NCBI GenBank assembly: GCA_021791055.1
Contig: JAJYXI010000045.1
Span: 1-39,499 of the forward strand
DNA from: Nitrospirota bacterium
Lineage (GTDB): Bacteria; Nitrospirota; Thermodesulfovibrionia; Thermodesulfovibrionales; Dissulfurispiraceae
Direction: 5' to 3'
DNA length: 39,499 nt
A model generated the notes under the pieces. The model was not told the DNA's origin. It did no database searches and saw nothing but the letters and a program-made list of their open reading frames with translations. Positions 32,531 to 39,338 of this stretch are shown one piece after another. Position 1 is the first letter of the stretch; each line of letters starts with the position of its first letter. The position numbers and the translations under genes were made by a program.

Positions 32531-32586
32531 GCATAACGCAAAAACTGTGGTGGCTATTCGCCATTCTCACAAGTGACTTGTTATGT
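32531..32586 (-). repeat. attC-like site after the toxin-antitoxin cassette
   Basis: An imperfect palindrome bounded by GCATAAC (32531-32537) and GTTATGT (32580-32586). Its central stem is TGGC-TATTC-GCCA with mismatched and extra bases on one side. Its right half, AGTGACTTGTTATG, nearly equals that of the site at 36008 (AGTGATTTGTTATG). It overlaps the toxin stop codon region, the usual place for attC at a cassette 3' end. Confidence 0.68.
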
Positions 32587-32886
32587 AAGAATTTTTAAGT
32601 ATCTCTCAATCTCCATTGCACCATGAAAAACACCCAAAATATCAATTAATTCTTTACTTCTTATGAGATAAGCAATACGATAGTGCCCAAATAGTAGTAT
32701 TCTTATATCCCCTTCTGGCTCCGACCTGTACTTATATCCAATTTCAGGAAAATCTTTCAGAATCTGTGCCTTTTTATAAATCTCGGTCGTAACCCGTTGT
32801 GCTGCATTCTTGTTGTCTTGGGCAATATAGTCATAAATATCTCTAAGCCACTTTTCTGCCTCTGAGGTCCATCTTATTTTTGCCAT
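32581..32886 (-). CDS. ParE/RelE-family toxin
   Basis: A 101-residue type II toxin with the RelE/ParE fold. The first strand is IRWTSEAEKWLRDIYDYIA, then ILKDFPEIGYKYR, DIRILLFGHYRIAYLI and the C-terminal DILGVFHGAMEIE. It would cleave ribosome-bound mRNA (RelE-like) or poison gyrase (ParE-like); sequence alone does not decide. It overlaps the antitoxin gene by 13 nt. It ends inside the attC-like site. Toxin-antitoxin cassettes are common stabilisers of chromosomal integrons. Confidence 0.88.
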   Translation of the reverse strand: MAKIRWTSEAEKWLRDIYDYIAQDNKNAAQRVTTEIYKKAQILKDFPEIGYKYRSEPEGDIRILLFGHYRIAYLIRSKELIDILGVFHGAMEIERYLKILT

Positions 32887-33059
32887 GAACGAATGCGCTG
32901 CTCCATGTTCTCATTGTTGATAATTCTACTCTTTCGTGAATCTTCTAATCCCCGCTCAATCATTCGCTCAAATGCAAGTTCGCGCATTATTTCTTCATAT
33001 GACGCGTCTTCAGGTTGTTCTTGAATAATTTTTGTCATCACCTCTTTTGCAATAACCAT
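32874..33059 (-). CDS. Antitoxin of the ParE/RelE pair
   Basis: A 61-residue acidic, helical protein with the sequence pattern DASYEEIMRELAFERMIERG and the C-terminal W-Q-K. This resembles small antitoxins that precede RelE/ParE toxins (pattern D-A-x-x-E-x-I-M-x-E-L plus x-K/R-I-x-x-G). It should neutralise the toxin and bind its own promoter. The AAAGGAGG ribosome-binding site lies 7 nt before the ATG. An AT-rich stretch upstream with TATAAA/TATACA boxes could carry a private promoter. Confidence 0.8.
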   Translation of the reverse strand: MVIAKEVMTKIIQEQPEDASYEEIMRELAFERMIERGLEDSRKSRIINNENMEQRIRSWQK

Positions 33060-33788: not shown

Positions 33789-34460
33789 TTAACTCTTTCG
33801 CCCTTTTGGTCTGCCCGGTCTCTGTAGTATAAACCTTTTGTTCAGCTTCTTTTCCATCCTCTTTATAAACTCCTCTCTACCAAAGGGTCTTCCAGTTCTC
33901 GTTGCATACTTTAAGCGGTGTATCTCATCTTCTGTAATGCTCTCTCTGATAAATGCTATATAGTCTTTCCTCTGATTGTCGTTAAAAAGTTCTTCGCCCA
34001 ATATATCGTCTCTTTTCCCTTCGATATGAGCCTTTGCGCTTGAATAGGGGTATTCCTCTTCTTTTTTCACTATCTTTGCACGCTTTGGATTTTGCTCAAT
34101 ATATCTTGCCACAGCCCATAAATAATGTTCTCTGTCAACTATGCAGGAATGGTATCTGCTTTCCCACAATCTTCCTGTTTTTTCATATTTCCTGTTGATA
34201 TGCTGGGTGTAACAAAGAGTTAGACCTTGCATCATTTTATAAAGAGATTCCTCGCGCTTAGGTCTTGCAAGTAAATGTACATGGTTATTCATAAGGCAAT
34301 ATGCAAGGATCGGGCATTCCCATTTGTCTGAGTATTTTTTGAGCAACTCCAGATATTTTTGTCTGTCTTCTTTTTCGAAAAAGACTTTCTCTTTATTATT
34401 CCCCCTTTGGATTACATGATGAGGGAATCCTACTGCTACGGCCCTTGCTATTCTTGGCAT
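33789..34460 (-). CDS. REP-associated tyrosine transposase (Y1/HUH, IS200-like)
   Basis: A 223-residue single-strand-specific HUH nuclease. The N-terminus MPRIARAVAVGFPHHVIQRG is typical of RAYTs. The HUH pair is His60-Val-His62 in MNNHVHLL, and the catalytic tyrosine is probably Tyr120 in ARYIEQNPKRAKI. The basic C-terminus ends in RPGRPKGRKS. Such enzymes cut and join REP hairpins. All catalytic residues are present, so it may be active. Its promoter is leaderless (34467-34495). Confidence 0.93.
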   Translation of the reverse strand: MPRIARAVAVGFPHHVIQRGNNKEKVFFEKEDRQKYLELLKKYSDKWECPILAYCLMNNHVHLLARPKREESLYKMMQGLTLCYTQHINRKYEKTGRLWESRYHSCIVDREHYLWAVARYIEQNPKRAKIVKKEEEYPYSSAKAHIEGKRDDILGEELFNDNQRKDYIAFIRESITEDEIHRLKYATRTGRPFGREEFIKRMEKKLNKRFILQRPGRPKGRKS

Positions 34461-34563: not shown

Positions 34564-35820
34564 TCATTTCATTATTTCATCTAAGAGCCGTCGATTCAAG
34601 CCTGGTGCACCAAATTCATAAAGACCAGCGTAAAACATCCTTATTCCAGTTGATGGGTGATAATTCCTTGTCGGTTTAACTAACTCTTTTGGTATATTAT
34701 CACAGGACATAAATGCCCATTTTTCAAATTCGCGATCAATTTTTAACGGGTCGTTGAGTTTTGCATCTAACTGTTTACTATCATAATTTAATACTACAAC
34801 AGTGGCTAAAGCAAAGTTATTAATATCGCCTTCAAAGTTCACCGCCATGACTCTCACATTTTCTGGTGAAAAATCCTCATTAGAAATTCCTAATTCTTCC
34901 CATAATGCCCGTTTCACCCAATTTAAAATACAGTCCTTGTCACCCTCCAAATCTTTGGGATCTAATTGTTCCCCAATAGAAAGAGCCCATACATTATGGT
35001 GATCGCCACCTTTCTTAGGACTTGTTTCAGCCAAAAAAAGTTTGTCATCCTGTGTCCTAATTATTAAATGCAGACATAGACTATTCGGAAAATTGATTTG
35101 TCCCTTATTTATTACTTGATTGATATCTTGAAACCATTGTTGAGAATGCTCTGATATCCACTTATGGTAAAATTGAAATTGACTCCATTTCGTCTTTTGG
35201 ACTTCAAGTCTGAGAATTTTCATATCGGAAAAAGCAACAGGATTCTTAATTAACATCAATCGTGTTTTATCTTCTGTGTATATTTGAGGGAATTCTGTAT
35301 CTAAGTAATGTTGATAAGCACTATTAATATTTCTCTGGAACATGTATTCAATGGGTAAATACTCAATCTTTACTTCTTTGGTCGACCACCCTTCTTGCAA
35401 ATCAGGACACGACTGAAGTGTAAGTCCAAGCCCCCAACCAATGCGACCTGCTGAAAAAGGCTGCAGCAATTTATCAATTCGACTTTGATATAGGGCAGCT
35501 AATCGTTTTTCGTATGTTCTATGACGTGCATATCGTTCTGTTAAAAAGAGTCCGGCAGGCAATAGTGTCACAATAAATAGTGCCATCCACGAAAGAATGT
35601 TGATTGATCTATAATTTATATCAAACATCCTATTCAGTAACTGCAAGATACCCGTTACCGTTTCATCTGACCAAATATTGATAAAACCACCCGCTAAAAA
35701 TGCGCCACCGTAACCTACCCATTTAGAATAGCGTTTGCAGAATGCATGAATTTCGCTCAGTATCAAGTCATTACGGCTGATATTTTTATTGAATTCAAAA
35801 TTTAAATTATTCTCTGTCAT
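34564..35820 (-). CDS. Two-TM protein with C-terminal Nudix-like domain (integron cassette gene)
   Basis: A 418-residue protein. TM helices are at about 34-50 and 74-96, a cytoplasmic linker runs to about 240, then a Nudix-like domain (SLCLHLIIRTQDDKLFLAE, WALSIGEQLD). The Nudix box is G-x5-E-x7-R-E-U-x-E-E-x-G-U; here the helix reads VKRALWEELGI, so the first glutamate of REUxEE is alanine and the loop is lengthened. Hydrolase activity is doubtful; nucleotide binding remains possible. It starts about 50 nt inside its cassette. Membrane-anchored nucleotide-processing domains occur among anti-phage effectors, but no partner sensor is seen. Confidence 0.65.
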   Translation of the reverse strand: MTENNLNFEFNKNISRNDLILSEIHAFCKRYSKWVGYGGAFLAGGFINIWSDETVTGILQLLNRMFDINYRSINILSWMALFIVTLLPAGLFLTERYARHRTYEKRLAALYQSRIDKLLQPFSAGRIGWGLGLTLQSCPDLQEGWSTKEVKIEYLPIEYMFQRNINSAYQHYLDTEFPQIYTEDKTRLMLIKNPVAFSDMKILRLEVQKTKWSQFQFYHKWISEHSQQWFQDINQVINKGQINFPNSLCLHLIIRTQDDKLFLAETSPKKGGDHHNVWALSIGEQLDPKDLEGDKDCILNWVKRALWEELGISNEDFSPENVRVMAVNFEGDINNFALATVVVLNYDSKQLDAKLNDPLKIDREFEKWAFMSCDNIPKELVKPTRNYHPSTGIRMFYAGLYEFGAPGLNRRLLDEIMK

Positions 35821-35872
35821 ATATATTTTTATTATCTTTGCAATTGCAACTCACTCTTTGTAGTGTTGCCAA

Positions 35873-36013
35873 CGGATGCAGCTGAACTGCTGCCCGCAGG
35901 GCAGTCTGTTCGAGCGGATTGTTCCAGAGCGCGAGTCAGCGCGCGAGGGAACGATTTTAATCCGCGAGGCAGTTCAGCTGCATCCGTTCCCGAGACGCGC
36001 AGCGTCTCGGGAA
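35873..36013 (-). repeat. Palindromic 141-bp unit, copy 1 (candidate ORF-less cassette)
   Basis: Identical to 37068-37208; identity extends over 144 bp including the shared AA and C at the ends (35871-36014). The outer stem pairs CGGATGCAGCTGAACTGC with GCAGTTCAGCTGCATCCG. Inside are CTGCCC-GCA-GGGCAG, a GCGGATT/AATCCGC stem and a GTTCC/GGAAC stem. A separate hairpin CCCGAGACGC-GCA-GCGTCTCGGG forms the right end. Boundaries are AA|C on the plus strand, that is G|TT on the cassette strand, the integron crossover point. Confidence 0.75.
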
Positions 36014-36065
36014 CGATGAAGGTCAGCGGTGGCTGTAAGCCATCCGCTGGAGTGATTTGTTATGC
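36008..36065 (-). repeat. attC-like site of the nuclease cassette
   Basis: Bounded by CGGGAAC (36008-36014) and GTTATGC (36059-36065). The central stem is CAGCGG-TGGC-TGTAA-GCCA-T-CCGCTG, with a single unpaired T on one arm, comparable to the extrahelical bases that direct strand choice in attC sites. GCATAAC on the cassette strand complements G plus TTATGC, the start of the same cassette at 37067. It lies 80 bp downstream of the nuclease stop. Confidence 0.7.
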
Positions 36066-36146: not shown

Positions 36147-37043
36147 TTATTTTTTCCCTCGTCTATATCCTGCCTTTGTTGCCTCCTCTTCCGTATCAAA
36201 GTAAACTCGGTTTTCTTCCTTGATCCGACCACAGCCAGCGTCCCCGGGAAGACGATATATCTTCGACCGCCTATTACCGATGATCTCTTTACAAATATCC
36301 TTTCCAGCCCAAAGACCCACACCTGCTACCCTCGCCCCTTGTTCGTAAAGGCGGAATTCTTTATAACGATGGAATGGGGAAGGGGCAATAACACGAGCAT
36401 ATCCTTGCTTGATAAGTTCCGCATTGATAAGTGTACCATTCATAAGAAATACATAGGCAAGTAGACGACCATAGTCATCATACTGGGTAGAAGGCTCAAA
36501 TTCAAGATGTACCTTTTTCCCTTCTAATTGTCTCTTGGTAAACTCTGAAGCCTCAGGACCAAAAAACTCAACAGGTTTTTCTGGATGCACCGTCTCAGGA
36601 GTATCAATGCCAATAAGGCGCACGGTTTGATATCGCCAACCTCGTCCTACACCAATGGTATCACCGTCAGTAATGTGGGTTACAAGTACCCATTCTCCCC
36701 TTGGGTCTCCTCCAGTGAAAGTCCAAATCGTAAATAATGAAGTGGGGATCAATAGAATAAGGACAACGGCAATTACACGGCTTCTCAGGGTGAGAGGTTC
36801 TTTCTTCATGGTTGGTCGTAGTGATTGCACCCTATCTAATCGGAATGAACGGATATCACGGGTAAAGTAACAGTATGCCTTGAAGTAGGTATGTTTCTCG
36901 CCGCTAAATATCTCACGAGGATAAATGGCGTTATGTCTGATGACCTGGCCATCTGGGTGCAAATACTTAAAAGATAGTACTCCCCTTTGCTCGATGACTT
37001 TTCTAATCTTTAGTAAATATTCTTGCTCCCTTTCTTCCTGCAT
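36147..37043 (-). CDS. WYL-TM-staphylococcal-nuclease fusion with Ada-like tail
   Basis: A 298-residue protein. A WYL-like domain (about 20-77; VLSFKYLHPDGQVIRHNAIY, FKAYCYFTRDIRSFRLDRV) is followed by one TM (about 90-108) and an SNase domain (about 117-247). All nuclease catalytic positions are kept: Asp128 (DGDTI), Arg142, Asp147-Thr148 and Glu150 (VRLIGIDTPET), Arg193 (YGRLLAY). The C-terminus resembles the small Ada-type zinc module often following SNase domains (NRRSKIYRLPG, VYFDTEEEATKAGY), but with cysteines mostly lost. The N-in topology would place the nuclease outside the inner membrane. It is the only gene in its cassette and lies closest to Pc. Confidence 0.85.
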   Translation of the reverse strand: MQEEREQEYLLKIRKVIEQRGVLSFKYLHPDGQVIRHNAIYPREIFSGEKHTYFKAYCYFTRDIRSFRLDRVQSLRPTMKKEPLTLRSRVIAVVLILLIPTSLFTIWTFTGGDPRGEWVLVTHITDGDTIGVGRGWRYQTVRLIGIDTPETVHPEKPVEFFGPEASEFTKRQLEGKKVHLEFEPSTQYDDYGRLLAYVFLMNGTLINAELIKQGYARVIAPSPFHRYKEFRLYEQGARVAGVGLWAGKDICKEIIGNRRSKIYRLPGDAGCGRIKEENRVYFDTEEEATKAGYRRGKK

Positions 37044-37067
37044 CTTTTCTTCATTTTACAAGCATAA

Positions 37068-37208
37068 CGGATGCAGCTGAACTGCTGCCCGCAGGGCAGT
37101 CTGTTCGAGCGGATTGTTCCAGAGCGCGAGTCAGCGCGCGAGGGAACGATTTTAATCCGCGAGGCAGTTCAGCTGCATCCGTTCCCGAGACGCGCAGCGT
37201 CTCGGGAA
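37068..37208 (-). repeat. Palindromic 141-bp unit, copy 2 (candidate ORF-less cassette, first in array)
   Basis: Base-for-base identical to copy 1 (35873-36013), in the same orientation. It lies between the integrase-proximal spacer and the nuclease cassette, again with AA|C borders. The two copies flank the nuclease cassette as direct repeats, so homologous recombination could delete it. The structure in its transcript would sit in the leader of the nuclease mRNA. Confidence 0.75.
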
Positions 37209-37242
37209 CATTCTCTTTTAAGTTTATTCAATATTATGATAA

Positions 37243-37271
37243 ATTATAGAAATCAAGAGCGGGATAGTCAA
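37243..37271 (-). promoter_or_regulatory. Candidate integron cassette promoter Pc
   Basis: Minus strand: TTGACT (37271-37266), exactly 17 nt, TATAAT (37248-37243). It lies between the integrase start and the first cassette and points into the array, the textbook position of Pc. Transcription would begin near 37236 and read through both palindromic units and the nuclease and Nudix genes. Confidence 0.75.
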
Positions 37272-37307
37272 GGTAAAATCATAAAATCGTGGGAAAGTGG
37301 AGGTTAA

Positions 37308-37367
37308 ATGCAATATAATAATGTCATATCTCTTATTATGTTGCTGAAATGTAGTATTGTATATTAG
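37308..37367 (+). CDS. Possible 19-residue leader ORF before the integrase
   Basis: ATG 37308 follows GGAGG by 4 nt and reads MQYNNVISLIMLLKCSIVY before TAG. The integrase ATG comes 2 nt after the stop, and the integrase itself has no ribosome-binding site, so translation of the leader could feed the integrase. Short size makes chance possible. Confidence 0.35.
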   Translation: MQYNNVISLIMLLKCSIVY

Positions 37368-37369
37368 TT

Positions 37370-37665
37370 ATGTTAGAGTCATTTAAAAACTTTTTGTCAT
37401 CAAAAAACAAGATAAACGACAAATATCTTCCGTTTTATTTAAGATGGTAACGGAAGGTTTGCGTTTCCTTGATATTCCATTAACTCAATCTATTACAAAT
37501 GACCAAAAATCTCAATTTCTTAAATACTTATCCAAAACCCATGAAGACTGGCAGGTAAAGCAGGCTGATGCCGCACTCAGGTTATATGATTATTATCTTT
37601 CGGAGTTGCAGAGGTCTGCAGAAGAGGGCTCTTTAGAAAATAAAGGAAAAGTGGGGCGTTGTTGA
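37370..37665 (+). pseudogene. intI: Integron-type tyrosine integrase, N-terminal remnant with frameshift
   Basis: From ATG 37370 the frame reads MLESFKNFLSSKNKINDKYL, FYLRW, then TAA. Adding one base at the GG (TGG-GTA) restores VTEGLRFLDIPL, DQKSQFLKYLSKTHEDWQ and VKQADAALRLYDYYLSEL. This is the extended N-terminal SAM-like domain found in integron integrases of environmental bacteria (Y-x-x-W-V, H-E-D-W-Q-V-K-Q-A-D-x-A-L-R-L-Y-D-Y). The frame then ends at KGKVGRC; the whole catalytic domain (R-H-R-Y residues) is absent. The gene is dead through both a one-base deletion and a 3' truncation. Confidence 0.75.
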
Positions 37666-37898: not shown

Positions 37899-38019
37899 TG
37901 CTCCGAAATCCTTTCCAGTTTTTCGTAAATTTTATCCCAACGCCCCACAGCCCGCCAATAAAGGCATAGCGGATATTTTCTTTTTCAGAAAAAGAAACAA
38001 ACTTCTTTAGCATTTTCAT
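37882..38019 (-). pseudogene. Remnant ORF coupled to apeA (possible nucleotidyltransferase N-terminus)
   Basis: The ATG at 38019 overlaps the apeA stop as ATGA. The 45-codon frame reads MKMLKKFVSFSEKENIRYAF and IGGLWG, resembling the first strand of MNT/AbiEii-type nucleotidyltransferases (x-Y-A-x-I-G-G-L-A). It then runs into unrelated sequence. In the +1 frame the same DNA reads GRWDKIYEKLERISEQ and stops at the next gene's ATGA. A deletion fusing the head and tail of one gene would explain this. The family suggestion is weak. Confidence 0.45.
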
Positions 38020-39338
38020 ATTTCAAACTCTGTAAATTTGTCCTGATATTCTTTGCTGATTGCTTCTTCAATCCCTATTCGATTTAAGATATACGCTATA
38101 ATTACAAGCTGTAAGCATTGACAGATAATAATCATATCTCTTAATGACAATTTGCGTAATAACTTCTTTGGCTTTCCAATATGCGCTATCTCATTTCTTA
38201 GGTCGCCTATATTTTGTCCTATCGTATTCGAATTTTCTTTTGCAAATATCTTCGCTAACACTGACTTTAGTTTTTCAGACCCATAGGTATTTATAGGCCA
38301 TTCGTATTTTTCATGATTTTTTACGCCATCGATATAACTAATTGATTCTAATTGGGTTGCATATAAAACAATGTCGCTATGTATTAAATGTTCGCTTCTG
38401 AAGCCTGTCTCGGTTTGGAGACTGGAAACTATGGCAGAAAAATCGTTAGATATCGTTGACCATTCTTTTATTGTTTTAGATAATTCTATCTTTGAATGTG
38501 TTATAGGCATGTGAAAGTGACTAAGTTCTTTAGTAGCAATCTCAAGAGTTCGCTTATCTATAAATAAGGAGGGATACACTTCAAGATTATTTCTATTTTC
38601 TTTTTCGCCTGTATGTATTTCTATGTCCTCAGGGGAAACAGGATTATAAATCAAAATAGAAAATAGATTTGTAATGTCTAAAATATATTTATGTAAAGTT
38701 TTAATGTCAGTCTCTAAATCAAGGGTGAGATTTATATAATAGTCGATGTCTTTCTTCAACATAAAGAACGAATTCGGATGCCGTTTCTCTATTTCCTTAA
38801 AACATTTTTGCAGGTCTTCCATAGCCATTTCATTCTCGCTATATATATGGGATGAAATATCGCTGCTTACTGAAATAAAATTAGCTGTATTGCCGACTGT
38901 TAACTTTCCATAAGATAGGATCGTTTCAATGAGTGGTTTGCCTGTAAATTTTATTGAATCTTTGAATCCTTTTGGTGAAAAGAATTCATGCAAATTAGTA
39001 AATGAAAAGACAACCTCTTTAAATAAACTGTTCTCTTGAAGAAAATCACCTATTACCAAAAATTCAAAACCATTTCTGCCAGATCGTGTAGTAAAACCTT
39101 TTTGATATCGCATCCTTGATAGGGTAGGATCAAAACGGCCTATTAATGTACACTTTCTTCCGTTTTCAAGCACACCAAATACAATATCGCTACCATCGGG
39201 AACATCATAGCCAACAATCGTGTATTCAAGTATAATGCCGTTCTCGGGCGAATATATAATTTTACCGGAAAATCTTTTTTCATAAGTTGATGAAAAAAAT
39301 TCTCCTAGCCATTCCTTTGTTTTAAGTATCTCAGACAT
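38016..39338 (-). CDS. apeA: ApeA-type HEPN anti-phage defence protein
   Basis: A 440-residue protein with the ApeA N-terminal domain layout (EWLGEFFSSTYEKRFSGKII, YSPENGIILEYTI, GVLENGRKCTLIGRFD, VFSFTNLHEFFSPKG) and a C-terminal HEPN domain (about 210-430). The HEPN ribonuclease motif R-x4-H is RNEIAH, Arg381 to His386. ApeA alone has been reported to protect E. coli against phages by an abortive mechanism, with HEPN RNase action on host RNA presumed. Length is normal and no defect was seen. The ATG lacks a clear ribosome-binding site. It overlaps a short downstream ORF by 4 nt. Confidence 0.82.
   Translation of the reverse strand: MSEILKTKEWLGEFFSSTYEKRFSGKIIYSPENGIILEYTIVGYDVPDGSDIVFGVLENGRKCTLIGRFDPTLSRMRYQKGFTTRSGRNGFEFLVIGDFLQENSLFKEVVFSFTNLHEFFSPKGFKDSIKFTGKPLIETILSYGKLTVGNTANFISVSSDISSHIYSENEMAMEDLQKCFKEIEKRHPNSFFMLKKDIDYYINLTLDLETDIKTLHKYILDITNLFSILIYNPVSPEDIEIHTGEKENRNNLEVYPSLFIDKRTLEIATKELSHFHMPITHSKIELSKTIKEWSTISNDFSAIVSSLQTETGFRSEHLIHSDIVLYATQLESISYIDGVKNHEKYEWPINTYGSEKLKSVLAKIFAKENSNTIGQNIGDLRNEIAHIGKPKKLLRKLSLRDMIIICQCLQLVIIAYILNRIGIEEAISKEYQDKFTEFEI

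Follow-up and report, generated by a model that had tools for sequence, protein, structure and literature searches.

The minus-strand open reading frame at issue in a 39,499-nucleotide stretch of Nitrospirota DNA (contig JAJYXI010000045.1 of assembly GCA_021791055.1, hereafter the window) encodes a 298-aa protein in which a WYL domain is joined through a predicted transmembrane (TM) anchor to an SNase-type nuclease domain and a C-terminal sunset domain. We consider it reasonably probable that this protein is a single-pass (type II) membrane nuclease, comparable to Nuc2 of S. aureus, that is carried on an integron cassette and equipped with an accessory cytosolic WYL domain. The single pieces are known; what is new is the WYL-TM-SNase combination and the swapping of the N-terminal module on a cassette-borne anchored nuclease. 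No earlier description of a WYL domain and a nuclease joined across a membrane seems to exist: literature searches on WYL and SNase found no fusion, and those on integron cassettes and thermonucleases, judged by titles and abstracts, found none about such genes. The features discussed here are collected in Table 1.

Table 1. Features of the WYL-TM-SNase-sunset gene and its integron surroundings, in window coordinates.
Feature	Position	Strand	Basis
WYL-TM-SNase-sunset gene, 298 aa	36147..37043	minus	ORF and profile searches
WYL (Sm-fold) domain, residues 8-76	36816..37022	minus	Pfam, conservation, structure prediction
Predicted transmembrane signal-anchor helix, residues 90-108, after K80, K81, R87 and R89	36720..36776	minus	Hydropathy and flanking charges
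Internal Met79; the WYL-less homologue L004 has its start codon at this position	36807..36809	minus	Alignment
SNase domain, residues 123-246; catalytic D128, R142, D147, E150, R193	36306..36677	minus	Pfam, PDB matches, residue mapping
Sunset domain (NF051437), residues 256-296	36156..36278	minus	NCBIfam profile
attC of the cassette; R'' GCATAAC ... GTT (R' GTTATGC when circular), 9-nt unpaired spacers, one extrahelical base	36012..36065	minus	Sequence and fold
Cassette start GTT/ATGC, 18 nt before the ATG	37062..37068	minus	Sequence
Gene-less 144-bp attC-like unit, between attI side and cassette	37066..37209	minus	Exact repeat
Second exact copy of the 144-bp unit, after the cassette attC	35871..36014	minus	Exact repeat
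attI side and 5' end of truncated integron integrase gene	37210..37569	plus	Identical to contig C56

Domain composition and predicted topology

An earlier, sequence-only reading had described the open reading frame as a WYL domain fused through a TM helix to a catalytically intact SNase, and this description was borne out by Pfam profiles, hydropathy and residue mapping. The WYL profile (PF13280) matched with an E-value of 1.5e-8 (34.9 bits, cut-off 21.8) and the SNase profile (PF00565) matched residues 140-246 with an E-value of 1.4e-26 (93.5 bits, cut-off 21), while the SNase domain also matched PDB sequences at E 4e-23. Residues were mapped from the S. aureus nuclease sequence, consistently with the PDB alignments: D19, D21, R35, D40, T41, E43 and R87 correspond to D126, D128, R142, D147, T148, E150 and R193 respectively, and the five catalytic residues are all retained. 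The C-terminal tail had been read as a degenerate Ada-like domain, an assignment we rejected because the Ada metal-binding profile (PF02805) scored 15.5 bits, below its cut-off of 23, whereas the sunset profile scored 34 bits against an NCBIfam cut-off of 27.

A full-length AlphaFold2 model built from five homologues was poor (mean pLDDT 53.6) and no conclusion was drawn from it. Two degenerate DNA patterns were used to gather HTH-free WYL domains in viral contigs, these were aligned to residues 1-110, and a WYL-focused AlphaFold2 model of these residues was computed from an alignment of 28 WYL sequences. A mixed WYL and SNase alignment was dropped as it placed WYL rows on the SNase domain, and a profile of distant WYL domains intended for locus scanning proved too diverse. 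Two HTH-free membrane WYL proteins in viral contigs, one with a TM2-like N-terminus (L131) and one N-terminally anchored (L125), were named by eye.

The WYL-focused model consisted of an N-terminal helix and five strands, with pLDDT values of 93-97 over residues 1-70 and 91 over residues 71-80, and the top 29 matches of a Foldseek search against the PDB were all WYL proteins. Comparison with the solved WYL domains of PafBC, DriD, BrxR and CapW gave VIA-align Z-scores of 10-12.6 (mycobacterial PafC 12.6, PafBC 12.4, ssDNA-bound CapW 11.3 and ssDNA-bound DriD 11.2), against about 8-9 for Hfq and other generic Sm folds. At the level of this predicted structure, an Sm-like WYL fold over residues 8-76, as opposed to a chance match, is confirmed, and the WYL fold proposed earlier for residues 15-80 was recovered. 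The anchor helix was modelled at residues 86-106 with a pLDDT of only 56-63; it lay outside the WYL domain and did not form part of a globular domain.

The WYL domain has kept Y53, C58, R62, R65, F67, R68, D70 and R71, of which C58 is the conserved cysteine of the family and R65, R68, D70 and R71 belong to the RxFRLDR loop. An upstream position that is usually arginine is N38 in the 298-aa protein, and this appears to be the position of PafB R181. The transcription factors PafBC, DriD, BrxR and CapW share this Sm-like fold and the RxFR(L)DR loop, and ssDNA is the WYL ligand of PafBC and DriD. In PafB, mutation of the two conserved loop arginines R211 and R214 abolishes ssDNA binding (PMC11804915); the spacing of R65 and R68 fits the RxFR of these residues, a comparison made by spacing with M. 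smegmatis PafB itself left unaligned. By analogy, the WYL domain, predicted to be cytosolic, may bind ssDNA or a related ligand. Unlike the four transcription factors, the 298-aa protein has neither an HTH nor a partner WCX domain, and its WYL domain is tethered to a predicted membrane nuclease. In the Pif1-WYL helicases (TePif1 and DdPif1; PDB 8bnv) a single WYL domain is likewise fused to a nucleic-acid enzyme without an HTH, although these are cytosolic helicases with WYL at the C-terminus; such a helicase is also encoded in the Nitrospirota source genome (L115). In TePif1 the WYL domain is described as an accessory ssDNA-binding module, as cited in PMC9964779. WYL domains joined to nuclease domains are likewise represented by the fusions to exoRNase, Mrr-like REase, HNH and Cas3 reported by Makarova et al. 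(PMC4012209), the main-text fusion list of which contains neither SNase nor a membrane anchor.

The only strongly hydrophobic stretch of the protein spans approximately residues 88-108, with a Kyte-Doolittle 19-mer mean of 2.37 at residues 90-108 compared to 1.25 for the next-best 19-mer elsewhere. Since the flank N-terminal to the anchor is positively charged (K80, K81, R87 and R89), the positive-inside rule would place the WYL domain in the cytosol and the nuclease outside, an N-in/C-out topology in which the nuclease is probably held outside the inner membrane. The earlier proposals of a sensor and a nuclease on opposite sides of the membrane, and of an envelope-located nuclease, are upheld as predictions by these charges together with the single hydrophobic anchor and the intact SNase. 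The arrangement predicted here resembles that of S. aureus Nuc2, with a single N-terminal anchor, an external SNase and a predicted type II topology. Nuc2 has a predicted N-terminal membrane anchor and was experimentally proven to be a surface-attached Ca2+-dependent nuclease (PMC3994088). Nuc2 differs in that it lacks the WYL domain, the sunset tail and the integron cassette, and in that it has been proven biochemically.

Relatives of the anchored nuclease core

The closest relatives with a full core, L004, L005 and L006, had identities of 78, 74 and 68% across the aligned region and are TM-SNase-sunset proteins without WYL. All three begin near the position of the internal Met79 with the same anchor, and L004 starts at that position. 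More distant is L007 (identical to L062), in which a NERD domain (E 2.6e-14) precedes the anchor and the core is 58% identical; L063 was assigned as a second NERD version from its similarity to L007. These two proteins share the TM-SNase-sunset core with the 298-aa protein and differ in that NERD replaces WYL. Because close homologues lack WYL and distant ones carry NERD, TM-SNase-sunset is, on the sequence comparisons, a conserved core with an exchangeable N-terminal module (none, NERD or WYL).

A second WYL-TM-SNase gene was found on contig C177 of genome G404, one such gene among 57 genomes from the phylum of L005, which means that the predicted fusion occurs in more than one assembly. This gene begins with MEQKIRFFEISQMLSKKGEAVSFEYLRPDAQATRHNAV followed by an in-frame stop, after which a different frame encodes the remainder of the WYL domain, the anchor, an intact SNase and the sunset domain. 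Its amino acid identity to the 298-aa protein was 38% in the first half of WYL, 50% in the second half, 52% in the anchor region, 84% in the SNase and 85% in the sunset domain. As aligned, the nuclease is much better conserved than WYL, the reading frame of which has been lost in this copy. Genome G404 also carries a WYL-less copy on contig C22.

Among 395 genomes of the window's phylum there was no full-length match other than the window gene itself, and no membrane-anchored counterpart of the WYL-TM half. WYL-TM-SNase was also absent from the 72,556 plasmid records and 50,697 phage records searched and, by close similarity, from IMG/VR; as measures of frequency these searches are incomplete, genome contigs having been scanned once, by peptide patterns.

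Integron cassette setting

By its boundaries, the WYL-TM-SNase gene qualifies as an integron gene cassette next to an integron platform. When circularised, the cassette has a 58-nt attC site with a 7-bp R''/R' stem and a fold z-score of -5.9. An integron integrase gene begins to the right of the WYL-TM-SNase gene, and about 360 bases past the repeat are identical to the truncated integrase on contig C56. The genome holds two integron platforms, in the window (37210-37569) and on C56, with identical attI sides and truncated integrase genes. Its full-length integron integrase (IntI) is encoded on contig C64 (19392-20342; 412 bits), and this intact enzyme could act on both.

The 144-bp unit is present in four exact copies, the two in the window and two on C56 (17341-17484 and 18840-18983), all adjoining integron cassettes. 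It contains a 17-20 bp inverted repeat that forms a long hairpin with a fold z-score of about -10. Because it starts and ends at GTT and its ends are complementary (CGGGAAC / GTTCCCG), the unit resembles a cassette without a gene that consists almost entirely of an attC-like hairpin. The repeat was rejected as the attC of the WYL cassette, which has its own short attC. The gene had been called the first of an integron array; it is the first gene-bearing cassette, but not strictly the first unit, since a 144-bp copy intervenes on the attI side.

The related genes showed comparable surroundings. L004, L005 and the G404 copy on C22 each follow a GTTAGGC at 86-101 nt, L006 follows the one-base variant GATAGGC, and the G404 copy on C177 begins some 20 nt past GTTAGC, a hairpin of z -3.0 lying upstream. 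L005 and the C22 copy are nearly identical from GTTAGGC onwards and different before it, as expected of cassette movement. Support for attC-like hairpins was uneven (z -3.8 upstream of L004 but a weak -1.4 upstream of L005), and no attC-like end was seen upstream of L007. Downstream of the L119 gene, a possible attC was rejected because it did not fold. WYL-less TM-SNase-sunset genes behind attC-like ends comprise L004, L005, L006 and L122, with a shared leader, TTAGGCAAAAT, and its variants; these common ends and leader suggest that anchored nucleases form a broader family of mobile cassettes. Proteins that are exported or lie in membranes are overrepresented among the products of gene cassettes (PMC10963911).

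Several neighbouring genes, all on the minus strand, were also annotated. About 1 kb from the WYL-TM-SNase gene, beyond the integrase remnant, is the gene for an ApeA-like HEPN protein (38016-39338; ApeA_NTD1 E 1.5e-22, HEPN_Apea E 9e-10) that contains an RNEIAH motif and is a candidate defence RNase. The next cassette gene (34564-35820) encodes two likely TM helices, judged by eye, and after them a region with a weak Nudix-like match (E 0.013) that falls short of the cut-off. At the expected place of this second cassette's attC, a REP-associated (RayT-like) transposase gene (33789-34460) has inserted, flanked on both sides by inverted TAGGGACACATCCCCTA ends, and a near copy of it adjoins the intact integrase on C64. 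Lastly, a toxin-antitoxin-like pair (32581-33059), a RelE/ParE-like protein of 101 aa and a 61-aa partner, was named by eye.

Proposed function and alternatives

In the mechanism we favour, the SNase-sunset half would lie outside the cytoplasmic membrane, either in the periplasm or on the outer face of the inner membrane, and would degrade DNA or RNA in a Ca2+-dependent manner, as Nuc2 does at the surface of S. aureus. The N-terminal WYL domain would reside in the cytosol, where its RxFR loop may bind short ssDNA or a related ligand and so tether the enzyme or tune it to ssDNA, such as DNA entering the cell; we infer this coupling of WYL binding on the inside to the nuclease on the outside. 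The nuclease core would represent the conserved function, and we treat WYL as an accessory module able to decay because the core is found without it and one WYL copy is broken.

The same observations could be taken further, to a scavenging or extracellular-DNA nuclease in which WYL is functionless, either as a decaying remnant of a fusion or as a part often skipped through a start at Met79. The WYL-less close homologues that start near this residue, the in-frame stop and frameshift in the G404 copy and the faster divergence of the WYL region all point this way. We nevertheless regard this explanation as unlikely, given that the window WYL is open, retains the loop residues of its family and has a confidently predicted fold, that its ATG lies 18 nt past the cassette boundary, and that there is no obvious ribosome-binding site upstream of Met79.

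The nuclease might serve to defend the cell against incoming DNA. In the dedicated form of this role, as a barrier or anti-phage device, the cytosolic WYL domain would sense ssDNA or nucleotide signals at DNA entry and switch on the external nuclease. The occurrence of WYL domains among the defence regulators covered in PMC4012209 and PMC9122601, the cassette location, the nearby ApeA-like gene and the retained RxFR arginines are consistent with such a role, which we consider quite doubtful since the same nuclease cassette exists without WYL, the sole other WYL copy found is broken, and PADLOC (2023 version) matched the SNase and WYL parts only separately. For these reasons the specific action on incoming DNA put forward in the sequence-only reading went unsupported; the check it suggested, for homologues in defence islands, found them behind integron attC-like sites and not in recognised islands. 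It is an equally speculative idea, to which we give little credence at present, that a cytosolic ssDNA-binding WYL domain monitors arriving DNA and controls the SNase at the outer face, so that one mobile gene, from a cassette family with exchangeable N-terminal sensors, would regulate DNA uptake or the entry of phage DNA. The inverted topology, with WYL outside and the nuclease inside as a membrane-tethered cytosolic effector, would agree with the intracellular nucleic acid targets of the WYL-nuclease fusions reported in PMC4012209 but is highly improbable given the strong positive-inside bias of the N-terminal flank, the ordinary signal anchor of the WYL-less relatives and the attack on its own cell expected of an active cytosolic SNase.

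For most genes on integron cassettes no function is known, and the cassette family to which our preferred Nuc2-like membrane nuclease belongs contains a readable enzyme, an intact SNase. The family is predicted to act at the cell envelope, is found behind attC-like sites in several genomes and varies in its N-terminal module from member to member. The WYL member would have a nucleic-acid-binding domain on one side of the membrane and a nuclease on the other, an arrangement through which the function of WYL and the entry of DNA would become a small problem, testable with a single gene.
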